A DNA stretch of 64,000 bases from Georgenia subflava (GTDB lineage Bacteria > Actinomycetota > Actinomycetes > Actinomycetales > Actinomycetaceae). The position numbers were made by a program, and so were the translations under genes. Positions 10,576 to 33,810 of the stretch are shown one piece after another. The DNA is taken from NCBI RefSeq assembly GCF_009193155.1, contig NZ_VUKD01000002.1, positions 558,001-622,000 on the forward strand. The letters are read 5' to 3'. How positions within the stretch are numbered: position 1 is the first letter of the stretch; each line of letters begins with the position of its first letter. The notes beneath the pieces were generated by a model. It searched no databases. It was not told the DNA's origin and saw only the letters and a list, made by a program, of their open reading frames with translations.

Positions 10576-10600
10576 TTCCGTTCACTGCTGTCCTGCCAGG

Positions 10601-13216: not shown

Positions 13217-13256
13217 GCTCGCCAGTCTGCGACCCTTGACGCCTTCGCTCGACTCG

Positions 13257-16222: not shown

Positions 16223-17538
16223 GCGGCCCCTGCCCCGACGGGTGGCCAGTACTCCCGCTCAAGCGTGTGGCTTCGATCAAGCTCGGCAAGATGGTCCAGC
16301 CCCAGCCTGCGAACGAGGGCGATGTCGAAGCTTCGTACCTCAGGGCGGCACACGTTCAACCGGACGGCCGCATCATTGACGTCGACGACAAGACCATGTG
16401 GTTCCGCCCGGACGAGCTCGCGGAACTCGACCTGTGCTCTGGCGACGTCGTGGTCGTTGAAGGCGGTGCCGGTTACGGTCGCAGCGCCGTCCTGCAATCG
16501 GATCGTCCCGGATGGGGCTTTCAAAACTCCATCAACCGCGTTCGCGCAGGCGCCGACAAGGCCGCGGGCCGGTTCGTCAACTACGTGCTTCAGAGGTCCC
16601 TCGCCTCCGGAGAGACCGAACTGCTCGTCAACACAGCGACAATTCCGCATTTCACGGCAGAGAAAGTGGCCGAGGTCAGGGCGCCGTTCCCCGCCGTTGA
16701 GGAGCAGCGCACGATCGCCGACTTCTTAGATCGGGAGATCGGGCAGATCGACGCGATGGTCGGCTCACAGCTGCGACTCGTCGCGCTGCTGACGGAGCGT
16801 CGCAAGGCTGCTGTCCTGTATGCCGTCACGAAGGGCTTGCGTCCGAATCGAACCCTCAAGGACTCAGGCGAACTCTGGTCCGGCGATATCCCCGGTGATT
16901 GGGCGATGCGTCGGATCTCCCTGCTCTTCCGCACGATCGGTAGCGGTACGACGCCAGCGAATGAGGACCTCCTTGACGATGGCGACCACTACTGGGTCAC
17001 GACTGGAGAGCTTCGCGAATCCGTGATCACCTCAACCGAACGGTCCGTTTCGAGAGAGACGTTACTCGGCTCATCTGTGCTCCGTCTGTACGCCCCTGGC
17101 ACGCTAATCATTGCCATGTATGGCGCCACGATCGGCCGGCTCGGCGTACTTGGCGTGACTGCTTGCGTGAACCAGGCGTGCTGCGCACTTGCCGAACCGC
17201 AGGGTGGTGTCTCACCGGCGTTCGTTTATTACTCCCTGCTCGCTGTGCGGGATCACCTCATCTATCTGGCCTCAGGTGGCGGTCAGCCAAATATCAACCA
17301 GGAGAAGATCCGTTCGCTCCGGCTTCCTGTGCCCTCGCACTCTGAGCAGCTTGAAATCGTCGCCCATCTAGATGTCACGACGGCGCGCATTGACGCGATG
17401 ATCGCGAAGGCGCAGGAGTCCATTGCGCTGATGAAGGAGCGCCGGGCTGCGCTGATCAGCGCAGCGGTAACGGGTCGGCTCGACGTTCGTTCCGGGATCG
17501 AGCAGGTCGAGCGCGACCTGGAGGGAGCTCACGCATGA
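16219..17538 (+). CDS. hsdS: Type I restriction-modification specificity subunit
   Basis: This 439-residue protein recognises the bipartite DNA target. Two target-recognition domains are each followed by the conserved helical region: EEQRTIADFLDREIGQIDAM from residue 161 and SEQLEIVAHLDVTTARIDAM from residue 375. The second domain contains the GQPNINQEKIRSL motif common in HsdS. Both halves appear intact, so the predicted site is asymmetric and bipartite; its sequence cannot be predicted by reading. Overlaps hsdM at the start and hsdR at the end. Confidence 0.96.
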   Translation: MSGPCPDGWPVLPLKRVASIKLGKMVQPQPANEGDVEASYLRAAHVQPDGRIIDVDDKTMWFRPDELAELDLCSGDVVVVEGGAGYGRSAVLQSDRPGWGFQNSINRVRAGADKAAGRFVNYVLQRSLASGETELLVNTATIPHFTAEKVAEVRAPFPAVEEQRTIADFLDREIGQIDAMVGSQLRLVALLTERRKAAVLYAVTKGLRPNRTLKDSGELWSGDIPGDWAMRRISLLFRTIGSGTTPANEDLLDDGDHYWVTTGELRESVITSTERSVSRETLLGSSVLRLYAPGTLIIAMYGATIGRLGVLGVTACVNQACCALAEPQGGVSPAFVYYSLLAVRDHLIYLASGGGQPNINQEKIRSLRLPVPSHSEQLEIVAHLDVTTARIDAMIAKAQESIALMKERRAALISAAVTGRLDVRSGIEQVERDLEGAHA

Positions 17539-20500
17539 CCTCGGCCCATAAGGAGGCGACGTTCGAGACGGAGATGGCCGAGTACCTAGCCCACCAAGGG
17601 TGGCTGTACTCGCCTGATGACACCGGATACGACAAGGTTCGGGCAATCTTCCCCGCAGACATCCGCGGCTGGCTGGAGGACACCCAGCGCGAGACGTTCG
17701 AGAAGGTCGTGCGCCCGGCCGACCCGCCGGCGAAGCAGGGAAAGGACTTCGAGCGGCTGTTGGACACCATCACCGGCGTCCTGGACACCCCGCTGGACAA
17801 CGGTGGGGGCACGTTGGCGGTGCTGCGCACCTCGGTCAAGCACGTCTCGGCGAAGTTCGAGATGTGCCAGGCCAAGCCAGCCGACACGATGAACCCAGCT
17901 ACGCTTGACCGCTACGCCAAGGTTCGCCTGCGCGTGATGCGGCAGGTGCATTACTCCGTCGCGCGCCCGAACCGGTCCATCGACCTGGTGCTGTTCGTCA
18001 ACGGCATCCCGGTCGCCACTATCGAGATCAAGACCGACTTCACCCAGTCCGTCGCCCAGGGCGAGGTGCAGTACGCCCAATCCCGTCAGCCCACGGACCC
18101 GGGCAAGGATCGCAACGAGCCGCTGCTGACCTTCGGCGCCCGTGCGCTGGTCCACTTCGTCCTTACCAACAACGTGGTCTCGATGACGACAAAGCTCGCT
18201 GGCGACAAGACTGTCTTCCTGCCGTTCAATAAGGGCTACCAGGACAAGGCTGGCAATCCGCCGGACCTGACCGGCTCGGACACGGCCTACTTCTGGCGGG
18301 ACATCCTGGATCGGGACACCTGGCTGACCATCGTGACGAAGTACATGATGGTCAAGAAAGAGCGGAAGACCGACCCGGTCACCGGCAAGCCGAAGACCTC
18401 CGTCTCCATCCGCTACCCGCGGTTTCACCAACTCCAGGCCGTCGAGAAGCTGGTCGCGGCCGCCCGCGAGGAGGGCGCCGGGAGCCGGTACCTGATCGAG
18501 CACTCTGCCGGCTCGGGGAAGACCGACACCATCGCCTGGACCGCGCACCGCCTCGCCGCGCTGCACGATGCGGACAACAACAAGGTGTTCGACTCCGTCA
18601 TCGTCGTCACGGATCGCACAGTGCTCGACTACCAGATGGCGCAGGCGATGTTCCAGATCGAGCACAAGCGCTCCCAGGTCGTCTCCGTCGGCGACGAAGA
18701 CAGCCCGCATGCTGCGAAATCGACACAGCTCGTCGAGGCTCTCACTTCACGCACCCCGATCGTGGTGGTGACGATCCAGACGTTCCCCTTCGCGCTGGAA
18801 GCTATCCGCAGGTCCAAGGCGCTGGTGGGCCGCAACTTCGCAGTCATCGCCGATGAGGCGCACTCTTCCCAGACCGGGCAGACCGCCGCCAAGCTCCGTG
18901 ACGTCCTCTCCCCCGAGGAGTTCGACGCCCTGGCAGACGGCGGGGAGGTCGACACCGAGGCGATCCTGGCCGCGGAGATGACCCAGCGGGCCGCGGCGAA
19001 GAACATCTCTTACCTCGCCTTCACCGCCACCCCCAAGGGCAAGACGATGGAGCTCTTCGGCCGGCCTGACGCCCACGGCAAGCCGCAGTCGTTCCACCGG
19101 TACTCCATGAGCCAGGCCATCGACGAGGGCTTCATCCTCGACGTCCTGAAGAACTACACGCCCTACAAGGTCGCCTTCAAGCTCGTCCATGACGGCCAGG
19201 ACTACGACTCCGAGAAGGTCGACAAGTCCCGGGCACTGCAGTCTCTGATGCAGTGGGTGAGGCTGCACCCGTACAACATCAGCCAGAAGGTCAAGATCAT
19301 CGTCGAGCACTACCGAGTCAACATCGCCCACCTGCTCGACGGGCATGCCAAAGCCATGGTCGTGACCTCCTCCCGCAAGGAGGCGGTCCGGTACCAGAAG
19401 GCCCTCGAGGCCTACATCACCGAGAAGGGCTACGGCCTCAAGGCGCTGGTCGCGTTCTCAGGCACTGTCGAAGACCCTGAGACCGCCCCGGAGCCGGTGA
19501 CCGAGACGACCATGAACCCGGGCCTGCGCGGCCGGAAGGTCGCCGACGCGTTCAACGGTCCCGAATACCAGGTGCTCATCGTCGCCAACAAGTATCAGGT
19601 CGGCTTCGACCAGCCCCTCCTGTGCGCGATGTACGTCGACAAGCGACTCTCCGGCGTCATGGCCGTCCAGACCCTCTCCAGGCTAAACCGAACCCACCCC
19701 GGCAAAGACAAGGTCTACGTTCTCGACTTCGTCAACAACCCCGACGAGATCCTCGCTTCGTTCGAGCCGTACTACCGCGGCGCTTCCCTGTTGGAGAGCA
19801 CTGACCCCAATCTTGTCCACCAGGTGGCCACTAAGCTGGACCAGTCCGGGATGTACACCGACGAGGAGATCGAGGCAGCCGCTGTCGCGACCATCGCTCA
19901 GGGCAGCAACGACGCCCTCGCCTCTGCCGTCTCGCCAGCCCGGCACCGCTTCCAAGACGCCTGGCGCGATGCCCAGTTGGACGAGGACACCGAGGAGCTC
20001 GACCGGCTGGAGATGTTCCGTTCGGACCTGAACAGCTACGTCAAGGCGTATGAGTTCCTGTCCCAGATCGTCGATTACGCCGACACCGACCTGGAGAAGC
20101 GCGCGATCTTCTACCGCGCCCTCGCCCAGACCATCCGCGTCGAGGCCCGCTTCGTCGGGGTGGACCTCTCCGCGGTCGTGATGACCCACCACCGCATCTC
20201 CACCGACGGTGCCGCGACCATCGAGCTGGAGAAGTCCGAGACCACCCCGCTGAACCCGCTTACGGCCCTCGGCGGCGGCCAGCTCCGCGAGTCGGACGGC
20301 GCTGGGTGGGAGGAGATCCTCGATCACATCAACACCATCTTCGCCGGCACCGACCTGGCCGAGGAGGACCGCATCGCGGCGATCGAGCATACGCTGCTGA
20401 AGTCCAAGCGCAACGATGACCTCGTGGAGAAGGCCAAGCACAACACCGACTCTGACTTCTACGGCGCCGACGACGAGGTGCTCGGCTCGTTCCTCGACTC

Positions 20501-20639
20501 TGCCCTCGAGGCGCAGAAGAGCTACGGCGAGGCCATGGAGGTGCTGTTCAAGGATGCCAGCCGCGACAGCCTGATGGCGATTCTGAAGCGGATCCAGTAC
20601 CGCCGGTGGCTCACTGACGAGCTCAAGAAGACGGCATGA
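17535..20639 (+). CDS. hsdR: Type I restriction endonuclease/translocase subunit
   Basis: The 1034-residue R subunit cleaves DNA after ATP-driven translocation. The nuclease domain shows Asp150 and Glu164-x-Lys166 (VATIEIKTDF) as the PD-(D/E)XK site. The helicase motor has Walker A HSAGSGKTD (residues 323-331), the DEAH box at 440-443, and motif III in FTATPKGKT. A C-terminal helical region follows for contact with the methylase. The whole hsdM-hsdS-hsdR set is intact with four-base overlaps, so the system should be functional. It protects against unmodified foreign DNA. Confidence 0.97.
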   Translation: MTSAHKEATFETEMAEYLAHQGWLYSPDDTGYDKVRAIFPADIRGWLEDTQRETFEKVVRPADPPAKQGKDFERLLDTITGVLDTPLDNGGGTLAVLRTSVKHVSAKFEMCQAKPADTMNPATLDRYAKVRLRVMRQVHYSVARPNRSIDLVLFVNGIPVATIEIKTDFTQSVAQGEVQYAQSRQPTDPGKDRNEPLLTFGARALVHFVLTNNVVSMTTKLAGDKTVFLPFNKGYQDKAGNPPDLTGSDTAYFWRDILDRDTWLTIVTKYMMVKKERKTDPVTGKPKTSVSIRYPRFHQLQAVEKLVAAAREEGAGSRYLIEHSAGSGKTDTIAWTAHRLAALHDADNNKVFDSVIVVTDRTVLDYQMAQAMFQIEHKRSQVVSVGDEDSPHAAKSTQLVEALTSRTPIVVVTIQTFPFALEAIRRSKALVGRNFAVIADEAHSSQTGQTAAKLRDVLSPEEFDALADGGEVDTEAILAAEMTQRAAAKNISYLAFTATPKGKTMELFGRPDAHGKPQSFHRYSMSQAIDEGFILDVLKNYTPYKVAFKLVHDGQDYDSEKVDKSRALQSLMQWVRLHPYNISQKVKIIVEHYRVNIAHLLDGHAKAMVVTSSRKEAVRYQKALEAYITEKGYGLKALVAFSGTVEDPETAPEPVTETTMNPGLRGRKVADAFNGPEYQVLIVANKYQVGFDQPLLCAMYVDKRLSGVMAVQTLSRLNRTHPGKDKVYVLDFVNNPDEILASFEPYYRGASLLESTDPNLVHQVATKLDQSGMYTDEEIEAAAVATIAQGSNDALASAVSPARHRFQDAWRDAQLDEDTEELDRLEMFRSDLNSYVKAYEFLSQIVDYADTDLEKRAIFYRALAQTIRVEARFVGVDLSAVVMTHHRISTDGAATIELEKSETTPLNPLTALGGGQLRESDGAGWEEILDHINTIFAGTDLAEEDRIAAIEHTLLKSKRNDDLVEKAKHNTDSDFYGADDEVLGSFLDSALEAQKSYGEAMEVLFKDASRDSLMAILKRIQYRRWLTDELKKTA

Positions 20640-21051
20640 CAGAGGCACCCGTGAAAGGACGTACGGCAGTTGCTCGCGCCGCGCGCGACGACGCGAACCT
20701 TGAAAGCAGAGGCTGGATAGAGCTGGACGCCTCCCTGGTGGACTAGATGCTCGAGTGCTCACGGGAGGAGGGCTAGACGCCGATCGTCTTCTTCAACACC
20801 CAGTAGGGCTGCGAGGTCGGTGGAGATGCCATTGGCGACCTCGCCGGCCAGCACGGCTACACATGCGCACTCGACAAGCGAAGGCACGACGCTAGGGCCG
20901 TGCCGTACGGGCCCACGTCCGCGACGCCAAGGCTTTGGAGATTGCGATGTGGCTGTCGCGGCCCGCCGAAGACTAACTGACACCGGCGCGCCCGAGCAGG
21001 TAGCGGCATCCAACAAGGGCGCACAGTGCCGCCCATCTCTACGCTGTTGTC
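20640..21051. other. Stretch between hsdR and the recombinase-like gene
   Basis: About 410 bases. Short open frames on both strands show no family resemblance. No inverted repeat that would mark a transposon end was seen, though an end could lie here given the mobility genes that follow. Confidence 0.4.
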
Positions 21052-21936
21052 ATGCACACGCGATGGGGCTACGTGCGGGTAGACAGCGTTGTTCCGGCTG
21101 AGCCACAGCTCAAGGCTCTCAGAGGGTTAGTCCAAGAGATGTTTGTCGATGACGACGGCGATTGGCCGTCGGGCCGGCACGAATGGCAGAACCTGCTGCG
21201 TCGGGTTCCTCCCGGCAGCACCGTCTATGTCTGGCGTGGTGACCGTCTCGGAGCGACATTCCCGGAGATCGCGACCGCCATACACAGCCTTCGAGAGCGG
21301 GGGGTCTCATTACGGTCGATCGTCGACGAGATCGACCCGTTCGGTGAAGGGCTGGTACGGCTCTCTCAGATGGCAGCTCAGGACCAGGTTGCTCTTGCTC
21401 ATCCGAACGGCGCCATCGGCGCTAACGCCGAGGATGTAGAGTTTCACAAGGCGCAGGCGGTGGCGATGTTGATCGCGCTCAAGGGGTGGCCGGTAGAAAA
21501 GGCGGGCCAGGTGGTGGGATGGCCCCGATCCACCGCTTATCGCAAGTTGCTGGGGTACCACATCTCTTCGCATGCCCTTCATGCCCGCCACAAGCACAGC
21601 ACTGCTCGCCGACGAAGGGTGGTCGGCCCCGCTCGAGACCACGCCCTCGCAACGATCAACCGCGTGGTGACAGCAGTCGAGTCGAGTGCGCCTGGGCTAC
21701 GAGCGACGCTCGCCACCCTCGGACCGTACGCGCGGTTCCCCGCTGACGCTCGCCTGCACGGCGAACGCACTCGACGCTGGGTGCAAGTTGGCGTCCACGG
21801 TCCCTCTCTAGACCTTACGGACGCGCCCATCTACCGGCTTCAAATCTGGGACGAGACCGAAGAGGTCGGGACGCTCCTCACGACGGACGTGGGAGTCCTC
21901 GAGCAGGCAGTCCGCTTCTTCACGAGGTGCAGGTGA
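21052..21936 (+). CDS. Serine-recombinase-like protein lacking the catalytic serine
   Basis: The 294-residue protein aligns by eye with the resolvase catalytic domain over residues 5-110: WGYVRVDS at the start, RHEWQNLLRRV, VYVWRGDRLGA, and LRERGVSLRSI. A helix-turn-helix follows near residues 146-168 (PVEKAGQVVGWPRSTAYRKL), as in resolvases. However, the position of the nucleophilic serine (GYxRVS) is Asp11, and the second arginine of DRLGR is Ala68. So strand cleavage is unlikely and a binding or regulatory role is more plausible. The last 120 residues are an extra domain of unknown kind. It lies 312 bases upstream of the TnsA-like gene on the same strand, where some Tn5053-type elements carry an active resolvase. 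Confidence 0.7.
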   Translation: MHTRWGYVRVDSVVPAEPQLKALRGLVQEMFVDDDGDWPSGRHEWQNLLRRVPPGSTVYVWRGDRLGATFPEIATAIHSLRERGVSLRSIVDEIDPFGEGLVRLSQMAAQDQVALAHPNGAIGANAEDVEFHKAQAVAMLIALKGWPVEKAGQVVGWPRSTAYRKLLGYHISSHALHARHKHSTARRRRVVGPARDHALATINRVVTAVESSAPGLRATLATLGPYARFPADARLHGERTRRWVQVGVHGPSLDLTDAPIYRLQIWDETEEVGTLLTTDVGVLEQAVRFFTRCR

Positions 21937-22248
21937 CCGCGAGTACGGGCCAGCTCGCCGCTGTGCCTAAGTCAAACGGTGTGAAGTGCTGGCTTCAACT
22001 TGCCATCTCATGTTTGGCACCTGTAGTGCGTAGCAGCCCTCGAAGGCACGTGGATTCAGCGACGAGAAACTGCCGCGGTATGGGGATGCGACGTCTCGTG
22101 AGACGCCAAGAGCGGTGTGTTCTCGTGCTATTTGACGCCTTCGTGAGACGGCGGGCGGGACAGTGGGCCGTGCGACGCTGGAGTTCCTGAGCCAACCGTC
22201 GCGAAGAGGCGGTCCATGGGAGGGAGCAGTGATGTTCCATAGACCAAT
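21937..22248. other. Intergenic stretch upstream of the transposition module
   Basis: 312 bases without a gene. It contains a hairpin and a short repeated motif described separately. A promoter for the transposition genes would be expected here. Confidence 0.45.
22092..22150. repeat. Repeated TCGTGAGACG motif with palindrome
   Basis: TCGTGAGACG occurs at 22096-22105 and again at 22141-22150, 45 bases apart. The first copy is the right half of the palindrome CGTCTCGTGAGACG (22092-22105), and the second is preceded by GACGCCT, which gives a weaker dyad. Spaced copies of a short motif upstream of transposition genes could be protein-binding sites, but two copies are too few to claim a transposon end. 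Confidence 0.35.
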
Positions 22249-23175
22249 GTGCATTCACGACCGCGGCTGGTGCCAGCTCCGAGGCGACGGTTCCGGCACC
22301 GTCTTCCCACGGCAGCGGGGCGAGGTGCATTACCTGCCGACGCCCGTCGCGATAAGGGCGCGGTGGTCGGTCGGGAGTACGGTGTGGGTGCCAAGGCCGC
22401 TCGCTTAACGAGCGCAGAATCGCGACTGCCCGCGATCGAGTGGGAGGACTGGGATCGCGGGAAGTTGGGGCCAGTTCCTCTGACCCGCGCAATGGCACGC
22501 GGGTTGCGGCCGGATGCACTCGCGCCAGCGAGGACGCCTAGCGCGGAGTCGTGGAAGATCAACAGGCCGGGGATCGCCTGGTGTGACAGCACCAGGCAGT
22601 TGGTGGAGTGCGAGAGCGGCCTGGAGATGCTGGTCGTCCACCAGCTCGACTTCGAGGGAGGGCTACTCTCGATCGCCACGCAGCCCTTCCGCCTGCACAT
22701 GGCCGTTTCGGCCATAGGGGAGTCATCCGTGGTCCGGCACGTCCCGGACTTCTTTGTCACCATGGCCGACGGCAGTCGAGTGGTGATCGATGTTCACCGG
22801 GTCTACCGGCCGGCGGGAGAGCGATCGCGCGAGGTGTTCGATGCCACCGGAGGCCTATGCGACGCGATCGGATGGAAATACCGCCTCATCACGGAACCCT
22901 CTGGACACTACCGGCAGAACCTGCTCTTCATCTCCGGTTACCGGGCACGCCCACCCCACGCCGAGCAGGTCCTCACCACGGCAGTGACCGTCCTGGCAGC
23001 CGGACCGATGGCGTGGCGGACCCTGGTCGATGCCGTTGCGTTATCGAGCGGCGTACACGCCGCTCTCGTACTGCCCTGCTTCTTCCACGGGATCTTGGTC
23101 AGGATGCTGAAGGTTCCCATGGAGCAACCGTTCAGCGCTGCCATGCCAGTCAGCTCGGCCGAAGGTGCGGTATGA
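22249..23175 (+). CDS. TnsA-like transposase endonuclease subunit
   Basis: This protein matches the TnsA-like family that cuts the 5' strand at Tn7-type transposon ends together with a TnsB-like transposase. The conserved core runs from about residue 100: GIAWCDSTRQLVECESGLEM, ATQPFRL, RHVPDFFV and VVIDVHR. Candidate catalytic residues are Glu122 and Asp167; the Q-x-K seen in E. coli TnsA is replaced by Asp181-Val-His183, a variation I recall in actinobacterial members. The true start is uncertain: the first 60 or so residues of the frame do not look like the family, so translation may begin nearer 22400. The gene leads a four-gene module. Confidence 0.8.
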   Translation: MHSRPRLVPAPRRRFRHRLPTAAGRGALPADARRDKGAVVGREYGVGAKAARLTSAESRLPAIEWEDWDRGKLGPVPLTRAMARGLRPDALAPARTPSAESWKINRPGIAWCDSTRQLVECESGLEMLVVHQLDFEGGLLSIATQPFRLHMAVSAIGESSVVRHVPDFFVTMADGSRVVIDVHRVYRPAGERSREVFDATGGLCDAIGWKYRLITEPSGHYRQNLLFISGYRARPPHAEQVLTTAVTVLAAGPMAWRTLVDAVALSSGVHAALVLPCFFHGILVRMLKVPMEQPFSAAMPVSSAEGAV

Positions 23176-23329
23176 CGTACTCAGCCAGCCCGCCAGTGTC
23201 GTCAGTGGGACAACGGAATGGCGCGTCGTGCGCCTGTAGACCCACCGCGGGTGGCGCTGGGCCTACCGTGCGGTTATCGGTCCCGGCAAGACGGCACCAA
23301 CGTCGCCCCACGGTCCGAGAGAGGCGCCC

Positions 23330-25693
23330 ATGGCTGTGACGGCGAGGCCACGACCACTTGGCCCGAAGCAACTCATTGGGATCGGTACTCGACTCGATTA
23401 CGACGGTCGTGACTGGATCGTTGTGGGCATGGAACAAGCGTTCCTACTGTGCCGCTCAGACGTCAAACTGGCGCGCATCGACCTCAATGAAGTCCTCCTC
23501 CACGCAACCATTCGAGACGGGTCGGCAGACGGCCGCGATGAAGCGTCGTCTGGCCCATCATTTGAACCGTTCACAGTCTCCCCTCACGCAGCAGCACGGA
23601 CGGCAGCGCCGAAGCTCCGCTGTGTGTACCTCCTGCTGACGGGATACCCAGACGGGCTCGCCCGAGAGGACGAAACCCCCGACCCGGAGGTCGGCCCGGG
23701 CACGGGGCGGCCGCTGACTGAACGCGTCTTGACATTGGCCGCCCGCGAGGGGAAAGGGGCATCAAGTATTTTCCGGTGGCTGAAGGAGTTCCGAGAATTG
23801 GGTCCGTCGGGATTGGTTGACCGGCGGTCAGTGCGCATACATCAGCCACTGGGCAATTGCCCCCGCGAGGTTGCTGAAGTGATTTGGCAAGTGCTCGACC
23901 GTGAAACCCAACGTTCTAGACATACGAGCAAGTCACTCGTCAATGAGATAAACGAGACGCTTAATGAACGCTACGGCGACAAAGTCCCGCATGTCAGTGA
24001 GCGTTCGATGATGCGCCACATCAAGACGCTAGATGAAGAGTTCCACCGCCACCTGGCGAAGAAGACCCTGCGGAGCAATCGTTCGCGACCGCCGACCCCG
24101 TTCCACAGTCTGGTGGTCTCGCGACCGTTCGAGGTCGTCGAGATCGACTCGACCCCGTTGGACGTACTTGCGCTCAGCCCGGTAGATGGTTCTCCGATCT
24201 CGGTGTGGTTGACGGTTGCCTTGGACGTATACACACGACTGGTCGTTGCCTGGCGCATCACCACCAAAGATCCCAAGGGCTTGGACGCGGCGCTTCTGCT
24301 CTACGACATGCTGATGCCCAAGCGCTGGCGTCCAGAGTGGGGAGAACAAGCGCGGTGGCGATACGGCATACCAGAATCCCTCGTTCTCGGCGACGCCGCT
24401 AGGGGACCTCTCGCGGGCGTCCCGTTTGGCAGTCCGAGCAGAATCTCCCTCGACAACGGGTCGATCTACGTCTCCGACGTGATGTACGCGGCGTGTGTCC
24501 GCCTGGGTATCGACCTGCATTTCGCACGCAAGGGGAGACCGACCGACAAGCCTCACGTGGAGCGATTCTTCGGCACTGTCAAGACGGGCCTGATCCAGTA
24601 CCTGCCGGGTTACTCCGGTGCCTCTGTTTCCGACCGTGGAACGACGGCCAATGTGGAGGATGAGGCGTACCTGCTACCGGAAGAGATCGGTGATGCCTTT
24701 GCCTGTTGGGTGGCGGTGCAGTACCACAACACTCCCCACAATGGTCTCCCGCTGCGTCCCGGCACATCGCGCGTTCTTACCCCGAATGAGGCATACGACC
24801 GCGCCATCGCTATCACCGGCTTCTATGCCGTGCCAGCCTCGCCCACGCTCGCAATCGAGCTGTTGCCTGGTGCGGCGCGACAAGTGACCAAGCAAGGGGT
24901 CGAGATCTTTGGCTTGCACTACGACTCCGAGCAGCTTGAGCCCTACCGGGAACAGTTGAGCCCTTACCCCGATCACGCCGGTAAGTGGCCGATCAGGTAC
25001 GACCCACGGGACCTCTCCGGACTCTGGTTCTTTGAACCCGACTACCTCGACCCCGCTCACGGCGCATGGACGCGCGTCCCGTGCAAGAGCGGGGCCTGGC
25101 TCCAGCCCTTCGCAGATATCGAACTGGAATGGGTCAAGAAAAGAGTGTCTGATGCCGGCTACAAGTTGCGCCGGTCGGGGACGGAGGCACTCGTCCTGGA
25201 GCAGATGCGCAGCTATCTCCGCCGCATCTCCCGTGGGCAGCCCGAGGACGGACGCGAAGCGAAGGTCGCTGCCATTGGACGCGATCGTGTTCGGCTGGCT
25301 TTCGCCCACCGGGTCGATGTCGAGGGGGCGCTGATGGTCGAGTCGGGGCGAAGGGTCTTCCTAGAGCCGGGCGAGGGCACGGCCAGTGGGAGGCTCGGTC
25401 CCTCCCAGGAACGAGTTGAGGGAGACCGGCCCGCACTCGCCCCCGAAGGTGGATGGGCGCCCGCCACCGCAGACGGGAACGCCGCCGAGCTTGATGCGGG
25501 GCGCCACCAAGAGACTGAATCTGGCACCGGCGAAGGGGGACGGCCGAAGCCCGAGCGCAAGGGGGAAGAAGACGAAGACGGTGCAAACACCTCGGATGAT
25601 GCCGTGTACCGGATGTCCCCTGACGCCTTCTTCGCCGCCGTCCACGAAACCCCTGCGAGCACGTCTCCGATCGGACGGGCGGGCTCGAGGTGA
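23330..25693 (+). CDS. TnsB-like DDE transposase
   Basis: The 787-residue transposase joins the 3' ends of the element to target DNA. After N-terminal DNA-binding helices (GASSIFRWLKEFRELGPSGL is a helix-turn-helix) comes an integrase/rve core with the catalytic triad Asp273 (VVEIDSTP), Asp375 (SLDNGS) and Glu411 (KPHVERFFG); the last two are 35 residues apart, as in DD(35)E enzymes. A Mu-type beta-barrel follows (about 500-600). The long charged tail, rich in glycine, glutamate and proline (residues about 690-760), would suit the TnsC contact known for TnsB. It begins at an ATG at 23330 and overlaps the ATPase gene by GTGA. The gap of 154 bases to the TnsA-like gene is free of genes. Confidence 0.93.
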   Translation: MAVTARPRPLGPKQLIGIGTRLDYDGRDWIVVGMEQAFLLCRSDVKLARIDLNEVLLHATIRDGSADGRDEASSGPSFEPFTVSPHAAARTAAPKLRCVYLLLTGYPDGLAREDETPDPEVGPGTGRPLTERVLTLAAREGKGASSIFRWLKEFRELGPSGLVDRRSVRIHQPLGNCPREVAEVIWQVLDRETQRSRHTSKSLVNEINETLNERYGDKVPHVSERSMMRHIKTLDEEFHRHLAKKTLRSNRSRPPTPFHSLVVSRPFEVVEIDSTPLDVLALSPVDGSPISVWLTVALDVYTRLVVAWRITTKDPKGLDAALLLYDMLMPKRWRPEWGEQARWRYGIPESLVLGDAARGPLAGVPFGSPSRISLDNGSIYVSDVMYAACVRLGIDLHFARKGRPTDKPHVERFFGTVKTGLIQYLPGYSGASVSDRGTTANVEDEAYLLPEEIGDAFACWVAVQYHNTPHNGLPLRPGTSRVLTPNEAYDRAIAITGFYAVPASPTLAIELLPGAARQVTKQGVEIFGLHYDSEQLEPYREQLSPYPDHAGKWPIRYDPRDLSGLWFFEPDYLDPAHGAWTRVPCKSGAWLQPFADIELEWVKKRVSDAGYKLRRSGTEALVLEQMRSYLRRISRGQPEDGREAKVAAIGRDRVRLAFAHRVDVEGALMVESGRRVFLEPGEGTASGRLGPSQERVEGDRPALAPEGGWAPATADGNAAELDAGRHQETESGTGEGGRPKPERKGEEDEDGANTSDDAVYRMSPDAFFAAVHETPASTSPIGRAGSR

Positions 25694-26922
25694 GCGCCTA
25701 CGACCTCGAAAGAATCACAGGGCTTGTGAGTGGCGCCCCGCACCGGCACAGCGCCATGACGAAGTACGGCTGGCGGCAGTACGTGCAAGGACTAAACATT
25801 CAACCGCCCCGGTTTTCGAGGGACCGCTACGAGGCCATGACGGACGACGAGCGCGAGAGGTACGACGGCATGCGCTTCGCCTACACGCACGGGCTCACGA
25901 ACCTGAAGACTCCCCAGCTGCTTAACGCGCACAGGGCCTTGTCCACGTGCTATGCGGAGTTAGCGGGCGCAAGTTCGACCGCCCGCTGCGGGGTCGTCAT
26001 CTCCGGAGAGGCGTTCGTCGGAAAGTCCACAGCGATGATGAGCTGGGGCCGTCGCGTGGAGCTGGCGCTGCGAAAGCAAAGAAGTCTCCCACTACCGGAC
26101 GACCCGGCCGCCGCACCTCCTCGCGTCCCGAGCCACGACGGGGACAGCACCGGAGAGTACCTGCCAGTCGCCTACGCCGCGGTCGGGATATCCGTCGGCG
26201 CCACGGTGCGTAACCTCATACGCTTCTACAACCCCGAACTGCCCAACAAAAGTCGCGGCGATATAGACGCGACCATCGCGCTCGTCTGTAGGTACATCAA
26301 GGACTGCCAAACCGCTGTCGTCCTCGTCGATCAGCTGCACGAGATCAGTCACGCCGTCCGGGGCCCCGCCGAAACGTCCGAAGTGCTCAAGGCTCTCACC
26401 GACCGCTCTCCCAGCACGATGTTCGCGGCCGCAGCGATCGGCATCGACGAACTTAAGATCTTTACCGATGGCTACACCGAGCTGGAGAGAAACCTCGGTC
26501 AGACCGGAGGCCGCTTCAGCTTGCATCAGATGAACACCTACAACATTCACGACGAGGATGGGATGTCGAACTGGCAGGAGTTTCTCCTCACCGTCGACAG
26601 GGATCTGATGCTTATGCGTTCTGCACCTGGCGACCTCCTCAAGCACGCGGACTACATCTTCGACCGCACCGCCGGGGTCACCGGCGCGGTAATGCAACTC
26701 GTCCGCACAGCCGCCGGCATTTCCATCCTGAACCACGATGAGCGCATCACCCAGCGGCTTATGGGCGAGGTCGATCTTTCTTACTTCGCCGAAGTCCAGG
26801 CTGGCCGCACGAACCGAACACGCCCGGAGCGCAGTTCATCACGTGCACCAGCACGCGCGCGGAGCCGGAAGCCACGGGGCGCCAGTCTTCTAGCAACCAA
26901 GCCCGCCAATCCCCGATCATGA
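25690..26922 (+). CDS. TnsC/TniB-like AAA ATPase
   Basis: A 410-residue AAA+ ATPase that in Tn7-type systems links target choice to the transposase. Walker A is GEAFVGKST at residues 106-114 and Walker B is VVLVDQLHE with Asp214. The N-terminal half includes SAMTKYGWRQYVQG-like sequence typical of TniB proteins, and the C-terminal tail is basic and disordered (RPERSSSRAPARARSR), where TnsA- or TnsB-binding segments usually lie. The start GTG overlaps the tnsB-like stop and the end overlaps the TniQ start, so the proteins are made in fixed ratio. Confidence 0.92.
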   Translation: MSAYDLERITGLVSGAPHRHSAMTKYGWRQYVQGLNIQPPRFSRDRYEAMTDDERERYDGMRFAYTHGLTNLKTPQLLNAHRALSTCYAELAGASSTARCGVVISGEAFVGKSTAMMSWGRRVELALRKQRSLPLPDDPAAAPPRVPSHDGDSTGEYLPVAYAAVGISVGATVRNLIRFYNPELPNKSRGDIDATIALVCRYIKDCQTAVVLVDQLHEISHAVRGPAETSEVLKALTDRSPSTMFAAAAIGIDELKIFTDGYTELERNLGQTGGRFSLHQMNTYNIHDEDGMSNWQEFLLTVDRDLMLMRSAPGDLLKHADYIFDRTAGVTGAVMQLVRTAAGISILNHDERITQRLMGEVDLSYFAEVQAGRTNRTRPERSSSRAPARARSRKPRGASLLATKPANPRS

Positions 26923-28763
26923 CAGGGACATTCGCGCTCATGCCGCGGCTGTACGTTGGAGAATGCTTCACGTCGTGGATCAGCAGAATTGCGGCCGCGA
27001 ACGCCTGCCCAACTACATGGGTGACCGACCACTTCGGCCTGACTACAGGCAAAGCGCGGCGCCTTCGCGGCTATGGGGTCTACCTTGACGACAACCAAGT
27101 CAGGAGGATCGCCTCCGTCACGGGAACCGACGAGGCAGACATACGGAGGTCGCTTCAAACCACATGGATCGGAGGGCCTGCCACCGGATCGACAAAAAGC
27201 GGTAGGGATATCACGAACGACGCCCAACAGTTCGCAAACCAGAATTGGTTATACACGAACGCATCGAACTACTGCCCACAATGCCTAGCCGAGTCCAACG
27301 GCGTCGTCATGCTGGACTGGACACTCCCTTGGGTTTTCGCCTGCCTTGCCCACGGACGACTCTTGCTCGGACACTGTCCCGGTTGCCGTCGCCGTTCATT
27401 CCCCGCGATGAGTTCCGATCGTCGGCCCCCTTATCCTGCGACGGTTCCGGTCCCGGGATTTTGCATGAACCGCAGTGACCGGAAACTGAAACCCTGCATG
27501 CAGAATCTGGGGAGCGTCGAGCCCGGGCTACAGCTGCCGCCCCACCTGCTCGACCTGCAGGCTCGGATCCTCGACGCCAAGGCCACGCGGTCCCGCTCCT
27601 GGTGGAGCGACCTCACCATGTTGTCCAGGTACGCGCTCCTTACCCTTCCGACCGGAGCTCCCAGGGAACTGGCCACAGGACGGGTACCAGCCGCCATCGA
27701 AGGCGCATGGGACTCGACGTGCGCCGAACGGGATCGGCTTCGCAGAGAACGACGTGCGAAGGTGCCAGGGGCCCTCTACCGCCCTCCTGCGGAAACGTAC
27801 CGACTTGCGCGCGTGCCACCCGCCGATACAGCGCTCATGGCAGCGACTACGCTCTTGGCATACAGTGCATTGACGAATGAACGCGCGCTGGTCACCTTCG
27901 TGGACCTCGCCAGACAAGACACGACACGGCTATCCGAGAGGAAGCTGCGGATCTACGGGGCGACGCCCGAACTGAGCCGCCGCACCGCAACCGCGGTGGA
28001 GGAACTCCGGTACGGGAGAAGTTTGGACTACGGGCGGCTGCGGCCAACGCAGCCGAAGCTGTTGTGGAACGCCGCCAACGTTCCGCCGCTGCTATGGGCT
28101 GATTTGTTCGAAAAGCACCTCGCGCCTCTAGTGGTCGATATGCCGATTAGTACGACCGCCATGCGGAGGTTCGCTTCCATTGCCTTGTACCGGGAGCGGA
28201 CGCAATGCCTCTGGTCAGAGGCGACCGCGCACTTCTTTGACGACGTCTTCCGAAATCGGACTCTAGCTTTTGGAGTTCGGTACCACGTCGCCGCAGGATT
28301 CGGGGTCGCGCGCCTCCATGAGATCCTCAACGCAATAGACCGAGTCTCGGAGGAACTCAACTCTGACGGTCGCATCGACGCATACCCGACGATGCGGGCA
28401 GCTGCTACTGAGGCGTTCGCCGAACCAGTGACTGCTGATGTCTTCCAGTTCGTCGCAAACGGTGCTCAACGGGCAACCGTACCGCGGTGCCGGTGGGCCG
28501 CAGTGTGGGCATGGACAATGGTTGCCTCTGACCACCTTCTGAACGCGCCCGCCTGGACGAACGGTCGCACACGGAATGAACGTGACAACTACCTTATTTG
28601 GGTTAAGCGTGCACCGACGCCCGTGCTTGAGGCTCTGCAGGAATGGGCACAGCTTGAAGCCTTGAAATTCCAAGAGCGGGGCGGCTTAGCGGTCCGCGGG
28701 TGTGAGGGCGAGAAGGCGCACCGGACCTTCGGGTCGGATGGGGCTTCGACGTCTCGCGGTTAG
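26919..28763 (+). CDS. tniQ: TniQ-family target-selection protein
   Basis: The 614-residue protein has the TniQ N-terminal domain: PRLYVGECFTSWISRIA, helix-turn-helix-like segments, and zinc-binding cysteines and histidines at Cys119-x2-Cys122, Cys142-x2-His145 and Cys153-x2-Cys156 (YCPQCL, FACLAHGR, HCPGC). Known TniQ proteins pass target information to the ATPase, either alone through DNA binding, as TnsD, or through a CRISPR effector. The length is closer to TnsD than to the short CRISPR-linked TniQ, which suggests direct DNA recognition by the C-terminal part (about 300-600). No Cas gene or CRISPR array lies in this window. The start overlaps the ATPase gene. Confidence 0.9.
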   Translation: MTGTFALMPRLYVGECFTSWISRIAAANACPTTWVTDHFGLTTGKARRLRGYGVYLDDNQVRRIASVTGTDEADIRRSLQTTWIGGPATGSTKSGRDITNDAQQFANQNWLYTNASNYCPQCLAESNGVVMLDWTLPWVFACLAHGRLLLGHCPGCRRRSFPAMSSDRRPPYPATVPVPGFCMNRSDRKLKPCMQNLGSVEPGLQLPPHLLDLQARILDAKATRSRSWWSDLTMLSRYALLTLPTGAPRELATGRVPAAIEGAWDSTCAERDRLRRERRAKVPGALYRPPAETYRLARVPPADTALMAATTLLAYSALTNERALVTFVDLARQDTTRLSERKLRIYGATPELSRRTATAVEELRYGRSLDYGRLRPTQPKLLWNAANVPPLLWADLFEKHLAPLVVDMPISTTAMRRFASIALYRERTQCLWSEATAHFFDDVFRNRTLAFGVRYHVAAGFGVARLHEILNAIDRVSEELNSDGRIDAYPTMRAAATEAFAEPVTADVFQFVANGAQRATVPRCRWAAVWAWTMVASDHLLNAPAWTNGRTRNERDNYLIWVKRAPTPVLEALQEWAQLEALKFQERGGLAVRGCEGEKAHRTFGSDGASTSRG

Positions 28764-29548
28764 CCCAGGCAGCGCATCTTGTCGAAGTTCCAGGAGACCT
28801 CGTCGGCCTTATTGCTGGGATCTTCCAGCACCTCGAATGCGGTGTCACCAGGTTTCAAGCCACCGGTGGTTGCAGTGGCGCTGCCGATCACGACGCCGCT
28901 ACTGCTCAGCGAAACCTCGAGGTATACGCCGTCGGGGCAGCCGAGTTCGGCGTAGACGTACGCGCCAACACAGGTGAACCTCTCGCACACAAACTCACCA
29001 GCCTCCGCAGCGCGGACATAGATGTTGCCCGACTCGATAGCCATCCAGGCACCGTCATCCCGGGCGGCCATCTGCGCGTCCATGGCCCGTGCCGCCGCAA
29101 CCTGGTCGGACTCCATCCAGTCACGATCGAGGGTTTCAAGCCCAGCCCAGGCAGCATCGAACAGGGCGGTGTGCTCAGAACACAGGATCGCCCCGTGCTT
29201 CATCTGCGCACGCAGGATCGCCCAGGCGTAGTCGACCAGCATCGAGTCTCCAACGGAGAGGTCGCCCTGGTCGGCAGATTCGCAGTAGTTGAGGCCCTGC
29301 TTGATGGCGGTGTGGGGTTTCCAGCCACGACCTTCGGGGGTGTTGCCGACGAGTTCGAGACTGCTGGTCATGAAGGCGTCGAGGTAGGCGCTCTCCTGCT
29401 CGCTCAGGTCGTCACCCCACCGGCTCACCGGCGGGGCGGTGGTCGCTGGCGAGGTGGGGGAGGTGGCGGCGATGCTTGTACAGCTGGTGATTAGCAGTAG
29501 CAGGAAGGCGGTGATGGCTGTGGCGGCGCGGCGGGAGGGCACGGTCAT
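28760..29548 (-). CDS. Putative lipoprotein, hypothetical
   Basis: A 262-residue exported protein. The N-terminus is a lipoprotein signal: basic start, hydrophobic AFLLLLITSC with the lipid-attachment Cys23, then a Ser/Thr/Pro-rich linker. The mature part is acidic and holds several cysteines (NYCESADQG, CSEHTAL, CERFTCVGAY, MRCLG) that may form disulfides outside the membrane. No known family. It converges on tniQ, overlapping its 3' end by four bases, so it could be cargo of the element or the edge of the flanking DNA. Confidence 0.75.
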   Translation of the reverse strand: MTVPSRRAATAITAFLLLLITSCTSIAATSPTSPATTAPPVSRWGDDLSEQESAYLDAFMTSSLELVGNTPEGRGWKPHTAIKQGLNYCESADQGDLSVGDSMLVDYAWAILRAQMKHGAILCSEHTALFDAAWAGLETLDRDWMESDQVAAARAMDAQMAARDDGAWMAIESGNIYVRAAEAGEFVCERFTCVGAYVYAELGCPDGVYLEVSLSSSGVVIGSATATTGGLKPGDTAFEVLEDPSNKADEVSWNFDKMRCLG

Positions 29549-29658
29549 AGTTTGCCTTCGGGTGGGGAGGGGGCAGGCACGTTTGGGTTGGGCCCTTCAC
29601 TTGTGAAGTAGCCATCCGGGTCGCACAGCTACCGAGGTCTCAGTGTCGCGCCACGGTG

Positions 29659-32600
29659 TCACGGCATGCCTCTGCTGGGTCGGCGGTAGTCGATGCTGAG
29701 GTGCACGACGCACACCTGCGCGTCGTTCCGCGCGAGCTCCGACGCCTGAGTGCCGAGCTTGGCCTCGACGATCTGGCGGTCGAGTGACGCCAGCGCTCCC
29801 CGACGTAAATCGGTGACGTCGGTCCAGCTATTCAGGTCGGGCCAGAGAACTATGAAGATCCCGTCGTTGGCGGCGGCATCGCGCATATAGCGCCCGACGA
29901 GCTGGTCGCGCATGGCCGTCAGAAGCTCGGGATTCCACGCCCCCTTGACCTCGATCGGTAGCGACAGGCGGCCCGTCGCGGGTCCGCCAACGGGAGCGGC
30001 GTCGACGAGTAGATCGGTGCGCTCGCCGATGCCGCTGGGCCGGTTGCGCCGGACCTGCACCTCACGATTGACGATCACGCCGCGGGCGATCAGGATGCGG
30101 TGAAGCTCGTTCGCCAGGTAGTCCGAGATCTCGTCCTCGGACTTCGGCCGCCCCGCGTGGGTGTCCCACAGGTAGTGCGACTCGGGCGTAGCGCCGGTCA
30201 GCCGTGACTGAACATCCTCGAGCCCGGACACGACCGCCGCGGTGAGACCGGCCACGTCGTTGACGACGACCGCCCGCCGGTTGCTCCCGAGGCGGAGCAG
30301 GTGCGACAGCCGTGTGGGTGCCCAGCTATTGCGCAGCAGCGCTGCTTCGGCGCTCGCCAGCGTACGCAGGAGCCACCGGTCGCTCGGCAGTGCCGCCACG
30401 ATCGCTCGGATTGCGGCGACCGCCTCCGGCGACCCTTCGTCCTGCAGCCGGCTCAACAACTTGTCGCGCCACTGTCCTATCTGCTCTCGAGGTCCGACCC
30501 AGTGGACGTCGTCGAACTTCGGGTCGGACTCCGGCGGGAACTTCGCGCGCAGCCACAGGTAGATATCGGCCAGGACTGCCGCTGACACGTGATCCATCCG
30601 CTCGAAGCCGCGAACCGTCAGCGACCGTCCGAACACCTGCTCTGCGACCGTAAGGTCAGACTCGAATGCGGCGGCGACCGCGGGCCAGCTCCGCTCGAGA
30701 TCGCGGTCGAGGAGCGTCCTCGCCGCCAACTGACGCCGGTCGACGTCAGACGGGTCCTCCAACCACTCCAGCAGCAACTCACGCTGCAGGTTTAGGTCGT
30801 GATTGGAGAGCGTGGTGATGAGCTCTTCCCGCGGATCTGCGTCTGCGGACCGAGCCAGCGACAGATACTTGGCCGCGACGGAGTCGTCCCACAGGTAACC
30901 GGCTTCGTTCGCTGCGAATGGTCTATTCCCGGCCGCCACGACGGCGCCCACCCGCGTCAGCAGGGCGCGGCGTGCAACGTCATGCGCTTCTGGACCGGCG
31001 AGCTCGAAGAGCTGCGCCTTGTCGTCCCAGGAGGCGCCGTTCACCGATGCCGTTGACCAGCAGGCGAGGACCGGCGCCCACTCGATCCACGCGGACGTGG
31101 GGAGCCGGTGAAGGCGTTCGGGTGCCACTCTTAGCAGCAGGACCATCGCCCGGTACCCAGCCTCCGCCGGGTGATAGAGAATCTCCGGCTGGTGGAGCCA
31201 CTCCTCGGGCTGGCAATGGTGGGACCGCAGGTAGCGATCGGCAGCATCGACGAGACGCTCGCGCAGCCCCTCGCTCAGAGTTGGCCACCGCTGCATACCT
31301 ACGACATCGGGGTCGAACTCGGCACCAAAATGCTTCGAGCCCGGCGCGACGGTCAGCAACCGGGTGCTGTACCAGAACCCCATTGCCTCGCCCGCGTCGA
31401 ACCGCACGAGCAACTTCGCGATCTGCTCGTTGAGGTCGTCAATGCTGTCTGTGCTCGCTAGCTGTGGGCGGCGGAACGCCTTCCATGACCGACGCATCTC
31501 GTCGGCCTCAGGCGAGTCGAGCGCGACCGGCTCCACCCACGCGTGCACGAGGTCAACGTAAAGAGGGTGCTCGGGTGACATGGCCAGCACGAGGTCACGG
31601 TGTTCCGGTATCCCGACGTCGTACGTCCATCGGAACAGCGAACGCACGGCATCCCGTATCTCGCCGCCGACCTGCGCGTACAACTCGGCAAGCCACGCGA
31701 GGTCGTCGGCGCGCACGATGCCGAACGAGTCGAAGCCGTCACCTAAAAGTTGATGCTGCGCCACCCTGTTCGTCGGGTCCGCCGCAAGCACCGCGGCCGC
31801 GACGGCCCGTCGCAGCACCGCGTCGGAAAACGGGTCCTCGCGTTCGTCGCGGCGGAAATCCTCGAACAGCAGACCGCCATGGTGCTTAACCCGGGCCAGA
31901 ACGACCTGGGTGAGCGCGTCAACGACAAGGCGATCCGCCCCTCTCGATGCGGCCAGCGTCAGGACACGGTTCGCGAGGGCACCGAAGATGTGGTCATCGA
32001 CCGGGACGTCGAGATCATCGAGGATCCACCGGAGACCGGCGTCGATGTCAGCCTCTTCGATGCCTTCGCGGAAGCTGTCGAGGAACATCGCGTAGGAGCC
32101 GAAATAGTTTCGCTGGCGACGCGACGTCAGCACGGAGAAGACCTCCGCATTGGACATCGCCTGCGGCCAAGACGCGAGCAGCGAGACTCCCTTTAGGTCG
32201 TCCGCCGGATCTTCGCCGATCGTGACGGTACCGAGCGCGAGTGGGCGCAGCACCGCTGTCCGGAGAGAATCCGGCAGCCGTGTCAGGGCCCAGCCGGCCG
32301 CAACGCGGTCGTGCGTCTCGGCGGTGATGTCCATGACGATCGCAGCTAGGTCGTCGTGCAACTCGGTGGCGGCGCACTCATCGGCCAGTTCAATCGCCAG
32401 TCGGCGGCGGTCAGCGTCGGTGTCGTACAGATGTGGGCGAAGCTGCGCGGCGATGTCGTGGTGCCGAAGCGCGCGATAGGACCGTTCCCACGGCGCTGCG
32501 GTGAGCGTGCTCGCAACAGAGAAGAGCCCGTCGATCACGGCGGCACGCAGGCTGTCTCCCGGCAGTTCCACCTCGCCCTGGAACGCCGCCGGATCGGCTG

Positions 32601-33810
32601 CGATGAGGAACTCGAACCGGTCCGGTGCGATCGCGACCGTCCAGGCCGCGGCCAGGCGGGTCTGCGGCCAGCACCGGCCATCGGGACCCAGGAACAACGG
32701 CCGTACCTGCGCCGCCGATAGATCGTTGGCGACCACCCACTCGGCAGCGAGGAAGTCGGCGAATGTCGCATGGGCCCAGCCGAGACGCTGTCCACCCCGG
32801 CTCGTGAAAAGCCCTGTCCGTGCCGCCTCGAGCACCAAGGAGACGGTGACGTCCACCGACCCCATGGGAGACGGTTCGGAGCCCCCGGCGAGATGCTCGA
32901 CGGCGATGTCTTCGCCGCCGGCGTCAATCTCAGGGCCGGTCCAGAGCGCGGAAGCGCCACCGAAGACCGTCGCCGCAGCGATGCGGCGAGCGACCGCGAC
33001 GCGCGTATCGAGCGGAACGTCACCGCCCAGCCCAGCGTCGAGGCGGGCAGCATTCTGCTCCGCACAGAGGGAGCGGACCCCGGCGGCGTACAATGCGGCG
33101 CCCTGCTCGGGCAGCCTCCCTGACTGGCCGAAGCTGCGGGCAAGGAATCGCAACGTCAGAGGCCGCGCCGCGAGTGGGCCGGCGCCGGCCCGCGCAACCT
33201 CGTCGAGAAGTCGGGACGGATCGCACCAAAGGGCCGCGATCGCCGATGCATCGACTCGGCGAAGGGGCAGGATCTCGACGACGTGAACCGCCCCGAAAAG
33301 CTCCGTCAGCGACTGCTCGAGGCCCGCCGGCCAGTCCGCCGTTCGGCAGGCGATGCGCAGGAACAGCCGGTCGTACGGGAGCCGGCGGACACAGTCGGCA
33401 ATGATCGCGCCGATCTGCGGAACGCGAGCCCGTGCCTCGTCCAGCGAGTCAAGGACTAGACACAGCTGATAGGACCCAACGGACCAGGCGAGGATCGACG
33501 GGTCGTCGAACACTTCGCGCACCAGTCGGTCCTCGGAGCCGTAAGACGCGAGGTCGAAGGACACGACCGGCACCCCGCTGGCAGCCAATCGAGCCGGCGC
33601 GGCGACCGCGGTCGACTTGCCCGCCCCGGGCTCTCCGAGCAGCACCAGACATCGATGCTCGCGGAACTCATCGACGCGCACCGCGGCTGGGTTCGCAGAC
33701 TGCGTGCCGAGCCAGGTCGCGTCGGGGTCTCGGAGGAAGCCGTCATCATCGACCGAGTAAGCGCCGTCGCGTGGGCACCAGAAGCGCTCCACGCTCGCAG
33801 CAGCCGACAC
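29659..33810 (-). CDS. NACHT-type NTPase with C-terminal PD-(D/E)XK nuclease
   Basis: A large protein of about 1383 residues from the GTG at 33810, chosen because AGGGAG lies just upstream; the frame is open to 34119. The N-terminal part has Walker A GEPGAGKST (residues 59-67) and a NACHT-style Walker B LVLDSLDEA (118-126). A long middle region of alpha-helical repeats follows (about 350-1150). Near the end, ERTDLLVDA and LPIEVKGAW give Asp1266, Glu1287 and Lys1289, the D...E-x-K pattern of PD-(D/E)XK nucleases. NACHT proteins with attached nucleases are known antiphage sensors that cut DNA when a phage trigger is bound; here the nuclease is at the C-terminal end instead of the usual N-terminal position of Avs proteins. 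Antiviral role is inference from architecture and from the neighbouring defence genes. Confidence 0.78.
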   Translation of the reverse strand: MSAAASVERFWCPRDGAYSVDDDGFLRDPDATWLGTQSANPAAVRVDEFREHRCLVLLGEPGAGKSTAVAAPARLAASGVPVVSFDLASYGSEDRLVREVFDDPSILAWSVGSYQLCLVLDSLDEARARVPQIGAIIADCVRRLPYDRLFLRIACRTADWPAGLEQSLTELFGAVHVVEILPLRRVDASAIAALWCDPSRLLDEVARAGAGPLAARPLTLRFLARSFGQSGRLPEQGAALYAAGVRSLCAEQNAARLDAGLGGDVPLDTRVAVARRIAAATVFGGASALWTGPEIDAGGEDIAVEHLAGGSEPSPMGSVDVTVSLVLEAARTGLFTSRGGQRLGWAHATFADFLAAEWVVANDLSAAQVRPLFLGPDGRCWPQTRLAAAWTVAIAPDRFEFLIAADPAAFQGEVELPGDSLRAAVIDGLFSVASTLTAAPWERSYRALRHHDIAAQLRPHLYDTDADRRRLAIELADECAATELHDDLAAIVMDITAETHDRVAAGWALTRLPDSLRTAVLRPLALGTVTIGEDPADDLKGVSLLASWPQAMSNAEVFSVLTSRRQRNYFGSYAMFLDSFREGIEEADIDAGLRWILDDLDVPVDDHIFGALANRVLTLAASRGADRLVVDALTQVVLARVKHHGGLLFEDFRRDEREDPFSDAVLRRAVAAAVLAADPTNRVAQHQLLGDGFDSFGIVRADDLAWLAELYAQVGGEIRDAVRSLFRWTYDVGIPEHRDLVLAMSPEHPLYVDLVHAWVEPVALDSPEADEMRRSWKAFRRPQLASTDSIDDLNEQIAKLLVRFDAGEAMGFWYSTRLLTVAPGSKHFGAEFDPDVVGMQRWPTLSEGLRERLVDAADRYLRSHHCQPEEWLHQPEILYHPAEAGYRAMVLLLRVAPERLHRLPTSAWIEWAPVLACWSTASVNGASWDDKAQLFELAGPEAHDVARRALLTRVGAVVAAGNRPFAANEAGYLWDDSVAAKYLSLARSADADPREELITTLSNHDLNLQRELLLEWLEDPSDVDRRQLAARTLLDRDLERSWPAVAAAFESDLTVAEQVFGRSLTVRGFERMDHVSAAVLADIYLWLRAKFPPESDPKFDDVHWVGPREQIGQWRDKLLSRLQDEGSPEAVAAIRAIVAALPSDRWLLRTLASAEAALLRNSWAPTRLSHLLRLGSNRRAVVVNDVAGLTAAVVSGLEDVQSRLTGATPESHYLWDTHAGRPKSEDEISDYLANELHRILIARGVIVNREVQVRRNRPSGIGERTDLLVDAAPVGGPATGRLSLPIEVKGAWNPELLTAMRDQLVGRYMRDAAANDGIFIVLWPDLNSWTDVTDLRRGALASLDRQIVEAKLGTQASELARNDAQVCVVHLSIDYRRPSRGMP

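Follow-up and report, generated by a model that had tools for sequence, protein, structure and literature searches.

What kind of element does a Tn7-like transposition module of Georgenia subflava belong to, and which of its proteins decides where it lands? The question is raised by a 64,000-nucleotide stretch of this 4.32-Mb actinobacterial genome (called the window here; G000:C4:558001-622000 in our genome set), in which a gene for a serine-recombinase homologue is followed by tnsA, tnsB, tnsC, and tniQ. Probably, the module is the machinery of a 42.2-kb Tn7-like transposon from a TnsA-bearing branch common in actinobacteria, in which TnsABC are combined with a TnsD-like TniQ that would recognize a tadC-like pilus gene at its 3′ end. 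Positions are window-relative, with 0 for the base that directly precedes the window; negative coordinates and those prefixed L005 denote sequence of this genome to the left of it.

The insertion is real and well delimited, and the element has moved in. It is 42,197 bp long, extending from −8027 (G000:C4:549973, L005:11973) to 34169. A 5-bp duplication, TCTTC, stands on either side, and the 12-bp inverted termini of the element, TGTCGGYTGCCA, directly adjoin the duplicated bases. The left junction reads GGTCCTCTTC/TGTCGGTTGCCAGC and the right junction TTGGCAGCCGACA/TCTTCGCGATC. The 12-mer occurs three times in the genome, two of the copies being the element ends; the third (C6:156127, L094), considered as another element end, is unlike both ends beyond the 12 bases as judged by eye, and was treated as a chance occurrence. 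When the host flanks were aligned with the same region from eight other genomes of the genus, the left flank aligned up to −8028 in all of them, and the right flank resumed at 34164–34170 in six and at 34286 in two (L023 and L025). With the two flanks joined, a single alignment crosses the junction in all eight genomes, that is, an empty site, and the junction holds TCTTC. The G+C content per 2-kb step is 0.61–0.68 within the element versus 0.72–0.73 outside. A 5-bp target duplication and 5′-TGT termini define Tn7-like transposons, and both are present here. An earlier interpretation made from the letters alone (the sequence-only reading) had taken the module to be mobile and would have called it fixed if related genomes all carried it at the same place; the site is module-free in all eight, so by that criterion the genus does not carry it as a fixed module, and the 5-base duplication that it had proposed to look for beyond 21 and 29 kb stands at the element ends. 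These ends, which were not visible to that reading, are outside the interval it described (21052–28763).

The five open reading frames (ORFs) of the module and the families proposed for them in that interpretation are backed by profile and tblastn matches, at the coordinates listed in Table 1. The tnsA product is assigned by an actinobacterial subfamily model, and scores 22.4 with the Pfam TnsA model, under its cut-off of 26.5. TnsB keeps all three acidic residues of the DDE triad, and TnsC is identified by tblastn, in which it matches genes lying 3′ of tnsB in related operons. TniQ has about 465 residues C-terminal of its TniQ domain; its predicted structure (mean predicted local distance difference test score, pLDDT, 34) was too poor for use. 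The tnsB/tnsC and tnsC/tniQ pairs overlap by four bases each, as had been read, and a gap of 154 bases separates tnsA from tnsB. Features by which Tn7-like elements are recognized, a TnsB with a DDE core and Mu-transpos_C adjoining TnsC and TniQ, are therefore found together, and so are those of the actinobacterial TnsA-bearing branch, namely the NF033179 TnsA and the grouping of TnsB described below.

A TnsB tree was built from 23 rows: the present protein, 18 from tnsA-bearing operons (15 from genomes of the same class and three from named actinobacterial plasmids, all with tnsA), and four labelled Tn5053-type, the authentic Tn7 TnsB being left out. The present TnsB joins the 18 (support 100/100), away from the Tn5053-type rows, and is the earliest branch within the resulting group of 19, at a support (92/88) that falls short of the strict threshold. 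Operons of tnsABC, often with tniQ and with TnsB proteins about 27–35% identical to this one, occur both in genomes of the class and on named actinobacterial plasmids. The family tree that the sequence-only reading had called for thus places TnsB with TnsA-bearing elements, and its view of the locus as a mix of Tn7 and Tn5053 layouts is not supported, because TnsB groups away from the Tn5053 type and the order tnsA-tnsB-tnsC, often with tniQ, is usual in its own group. The Tn5053/Tn402 family does share homologues of TniA, TniB, and TniQ and a serine-resolvase-type gene with the element, but membership in it was ruled out by the presence of TnsA, the separate TnsB clade, and the predicted-dead resolvase; the chromosomal gene target is a further difference. 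Tn7 itself (TnsABCDE, with attTn7 at glmS) has TnsABC with a TniQ/TnsD-type protein and inserts at a conserved gene 3′ end, as is the case here, and its 5-bp duplication and TGT ends are also those of this element. It differs in the target gene and in its remote sequence, and the present insertion lies inside the coding sequence; no TnsE was seen here, in a search that matched no control.

Searches for close relatives found none. Among 396 genomes of the order, TnsB has matches at E 1e-50 or better in 16, its own genome included, at most 35% identical, and within the genus only G006 has distant TnsB-like genes, 31 and 36% identical over part of the protein and elsewhere in the chromosome. TniQ is matched in two of 213 family genomes (E 1e-8) and four of 394 class genomes (E 1e-12), own genome included in both counts, the relatives reaching no more than 33% identity, and that along only a portion of TniQ. 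It also matches 31 plasmid records, none of them covering 80%, and no phage record. Pattern scans of genome contigs for close relatives matched 95 stretches for TniQ and 65 for TnsB, and none was confirmed. In some related elements (L053, L055/L056, L063) at least two TniQ matches lie around tnsABC, versus the single TniQ here. In actinobacterial plasmids (L018 and others), several related transposase genes, for example those of Kitasatospora and Streptomyces longwoodensis, lie about 15 kb or less from the end of a large plasmid record, as though related elements gathered towards the termini of linear replicons; of these records, the one from Kitasatospora was confirmed as linear.

Judged by the description that Benler et al. 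(2021; PMC8649781) give of it, their second TnsB clade, which is dominated by actinobacteria, is the one that the element fits. TnsB, TnsC, TniQ, and defence cargo are alike, and TnsA here is of the actinobacterial NCBIfam subfamily. Unlike are the position of TnsB outside the 18 others compared here, the internal tns operon, a His in TnsA, and a Gln in TnsC; furthermore, the clade is described as paired almost only with tyrosine resolvases, whereas the recombinase homologue here is of the serine type (PMC8649781).

The element interrupts the last gene of a three-gene, tadA-tadB-tadC-like operon, a name assigned in this analysis from the Pfam domains of the three genes (T2SSE, T2SSF, and T2SSF, respectively). 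The site is thus a tadC-like gene and not glmS, the site of Tn7 proper. It is 13 codons before the stop codon, and the T2SSF domain remains intact. Over nine genomes, the last 60 bp before the junction have a mean column identity of 0.91, where the median window has 0.84, and rank 74 of 887 windows, so this part of the gene is well conserved. Across the left junction the tadC-like frame runs 11 codons into the element and ends as CRLPAAVRVGQ and a stop codon, in place of the native AIFPGLAVLAVGL and stop. Among 35,996 random tails of similar length, 0.4% score at least as high against the native tail of the gene itself and 0.05% against the tail of four of the eight relatives; when the best of four tails is taken, the share is 0.08%. 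A stop at the distance seen for the substitute tail occurs in about 11% of frames. This single, post hoc case is suggestive of a resemblance between the substitute tail and the native one. The pattern of an interrupted tadC was found in one of 396 genomes, this one, the pattern having required both this tadC motif and a TGT at a single fixed position, and the titles found in a literature search for Tn7-like elements with tadC look, as titles, unrelated.

What, then, would choose this target? TniQ is the only protein of its kind found in the whole genome, and no other selector of a known type was found. A CRISPR-associated transposon is ruled out: no Cas1 was found in the genome, no CRISPR-like array was found in the element, and no Cas family among its scanned ORFs. 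The absence of a TnsD paralogue, Cas gene, or CRISPR array nearby, claimed from the letters, was thus confirmed. For TnsE_C there was no match in the genome, in a search that matched no control either, and none among the element ORFs by Pfam. TniQ/TnsD proteins of more than 400 residues in dual loci have been taken to suggest direct target selection, with the proviso that such prediction is difficult for some of these proteins (Faure et al., PMC10293859). We infer, as a plausible view, that TniQ alone chooses the target, and go no further than that because no second insertion is known, TnsE was sought without a working control, and the recombinase homologue is a possible partner.

This homologue is an intact ORF of 294 residues, 312 bases upstream of tnsA and without operon overlap. 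In an alignment with five ordinary resolvases it has Asp at the Ser of YARVS/YTRVS, which we take to be catalytic, DRLGA in place of DRLGR, and no ERELIxER helix; the roles of these other residues are likewise assumed. It is therefore predicted from sequence to be dead as a recombinase, and the three changes bear out its earlier description as degenerate. The helix-turn-helix (HTH) region is kept, with an HTH-like match below the Pfam cut-off, and is followed by roughly 105 added residues at the C-terminus, for which no relatives are known. Besides its own genome, the C-terminal part has one weak match among 296 genomes, a 61-residue frame with an internal stop, and no match among plasmids. 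When the full-length protein is used, the alignment with one plasmid record (H71) extends to residue 265, at 26%; the plasmid relatives are mostly named recombinase family protein among the matches listed, and of two that were fetched the one from Microbacterium adjoins a Mu-type transposase and an ATPase. The predicted structure (mean pLDDT 41.5) was too poor for use. Serine resolvases are dispersed among tnsA-bearing elements, and Benler et al. (2021; PMC8649781) describe a role for them in replicative transposition as unsupported.

A dead serine recombinase with an added C-terminal domain could itself bind DNA and select the target, or could assist TniQ, in the manner of TnsF in Tn6022, another TniQ element with an inactive recombinase homologue (PMC10293859). 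The intact ORF upstream of tnsA, the kept HTH-like match, the loss of the catalytic Ser and of an Arg, and the gain of a domain without known relatives would suit such a function. The precedent, however, is a tyrosine-type protein encoded in an operon with a short TniQ, and a small TniQ is what marks elements that have an additional selector (PMC10293859), whereas here the homologue is serine-type and the TniQ long. The homologue also stands outside the operon, 312 bases away, and in 33 loci around related tns operons it matches only two ordinary resolvases (both in L079). A selector of this kind is accordingly unlikely. About as improbable is a wider picture, in which the tadC 3′ end is a new home site, the dead recombinase a target-selection or end-binding factor, and the left end shaped to encode a replacement tail that keeps the pilus gene usable.

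If TnsABC and TniQ made this insertion, TnsB would pair both TGTCGG ends and join them to the target, TnsA would cut the other strands and so give cut-and-paste movement, provided that the His-substituted protein is active, and TnsC would link TnsA and TnsB with the target. The long TniQ would be the TnsD-like selector that reads the conserved 3′ coding end of the tadC-like gene. Several observations weigh against this reading. A single insertion of the element is known, and no tadC match was found in the 33 loci around related elements, whose own ends are unmapped. The tns operon adjoins neither end of the transposon but has an internal position, with about 30 kb of cargo between tnsA and one end and 5.4 kb between tniQ and the other. 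Its orientation, by contrast, is in favour: in Tn7, the upstream side of tnsA faces the end next to the target gene, and so it does here.

The internal operon would also be expected if the 42-kb ends came from another element and the tns module were merely cargo inside, and a 19-bp direct repeat (17/19 identical) flanks the operon, at 22080–22098 upstream of tnsA and at 28738–28756 at the tniQ end. Such an origin of the ends is very improbable. No other transposase was found among the called ORFs of the element, all scanned with Pfam, and the TGT/ACA termini and 5-bp duplication fit TnsB. For the repeat, two matches occurred in one of 100 shuffles, but with a pattern built from both copies, and the estimate for any such pair in 11.4 kb is about 0.4. 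The repeat is possibly due to chance, though curiously placed. Its upstream copy overlaps a 14-bp palindrome, CGTCTCGTGAGACG (22092, upstream of tnsA), which is not significant (20/100 shuffles).

The remaining points against concern whether the element still works. TnsA keeps the Glu and Asp, and has His at the position of the Lys that is catalytic in Tn7 TnsA; among 20 relatives, 16 have Lys, three Arg, and one Pro. The Walker B motif of TnsC reads D-Q, where 15 relatives have DD (10) or DE (five) and none has Gln. Without the usual Lys and the Walker-B acid, the transposition machinery may work differently or not at all. When the two ends are scored together for arrays of TnsB sites, the result does not exceed chance, with 27% of 150 random pairs reaching it; scored singly, the left end is reached by 3.5% of 200 random sequences, a weak signal, and the right end by 98%. 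The sequence-only reading had proposed a search for repeated motifs at the ends; the 12-bp inverted termini are present, and TnsB-site arrays could not be shown. It is possible, if doubtful, that the element is decaying or altered, with TnsA and the resolvase crippled, so that it moves by replication at best or is now immobile; the substitutions in TnsA, TnsC, and the recombinase homologue and the lack of a detectable array at the right end are consistent with this. In favour of a working transposon, however, the tns ORFs are open, with the four-base overlaps, the DDE triad of TnsB is intact, and the insertion is clean, with its duplication and empty sites. Change of the Walker-B glutamate makes Tn7 hyperactive but has compromised other systems (PMC11406308).

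The element looks like a Tn7-like transposon from a branch that is known but has received little study, ordinary in kind and unusual in details; as of Benler et al. (2021; PMC8649781), no transposon of the actinobacteria-dominated clade had been experimentally characterized. Its exact ends, duplication, eight empty sites, and complete TnsABC-TniQ set make it suited to testing if one long TniQ can by itself direct insertion to a pilus gene, and also whether dead recombinases have been co-opted by Tn7-like elements more than once.

Table 1. Features of the transposon and its junctions (window positions unless prefixed L005).
Feature	Position	Strand	Basis or remark
Upstream part of sulfatase cluster	L005:12660-20000		ROK regulator, NMT1-type ABC transporter, AGE epimerase, sulfatase start
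Transposon portion within the window	1..34169	.	Empty-site comparison, 8 relatives
Sulfatase gene end	1..794	+	Cluster begins upstream
FGE-type sulfatase-modifying enzyme	1135-2085	+	Cargo
Two neighbouring FG-GAP-like repeat proteins, secreted-looking	9140..11587	-	One sub-cut-off Pfam match, the other by eye
Type I restriction-modification genes hsdM-hsdS-hsdR	14249..20639	+	Cargo
Serine-recombinase homologue, predicted dead	21052..21936	+	Resolvase domain PF00239, E 2e-8
tnsA	22249..23175	+	NF033179 TnsA_like_Actin, 124 bits (cut-off 110)
tnsB, DDE transposase	23330..25693	+	Mu-transpos_C 1.7e-9; rve 7.7e-7 (below rve cut-off)
tnsC, AAA+ ATPase	25690..26922	+	Weak AAA match 0.022; Walker A normal
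tniQ, 614 residues	26919..28763	+	TniQ domain 1.9e-18, residues 7-149
NACHT protein, 1486 residues	29659..34119	-	Like antiphage EruA/HyoA
Right terminal inverted repeat TGTCGGCTGCCA	34158..34169	-	Left partner TGTCGGTTGCCA at L005:11973-11984
Right copy of target duplication TCTTC (5 bp)	34170..34174	+	Left copy directly before L005:11973
Displaced 3′ end of tadC-like gene (AIFPGLAVLAVGL and stop)	34175..34216	+	Gene body L005:11082-11972

Among the cargo, the sulfatase/ABC transporter cluster, which also encodes a 370-residue protein without a Pfam match, looks from its gene content like a set for the uptake and breakdown of a sulfated sugar; the main text of PMC8649781 nowhere uses the word sulfatase. 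Of the two FG-GAP-like neighbours, one ends in a GmrSD_C nuclease domain and the other in an Excalibur domain. Third-codon G+C is about 0.90 in hsdM and hsdR and 0.73 in hsdS, and lower in other cargo too, hinting at separate origins of genes within the element. The NACHT protein had no match to PADLOC families; it resembles EruA over residues 145–708 and HyoA over 1157–1465, far below the cut-offs of both models, and the long stretch before its NTPase suggests a later true start. Outside the element, the window also contains the host gene for transfer-messenger RNA (tmRNA), at 50479–50846, with the tag ADSKRTDFALAA.

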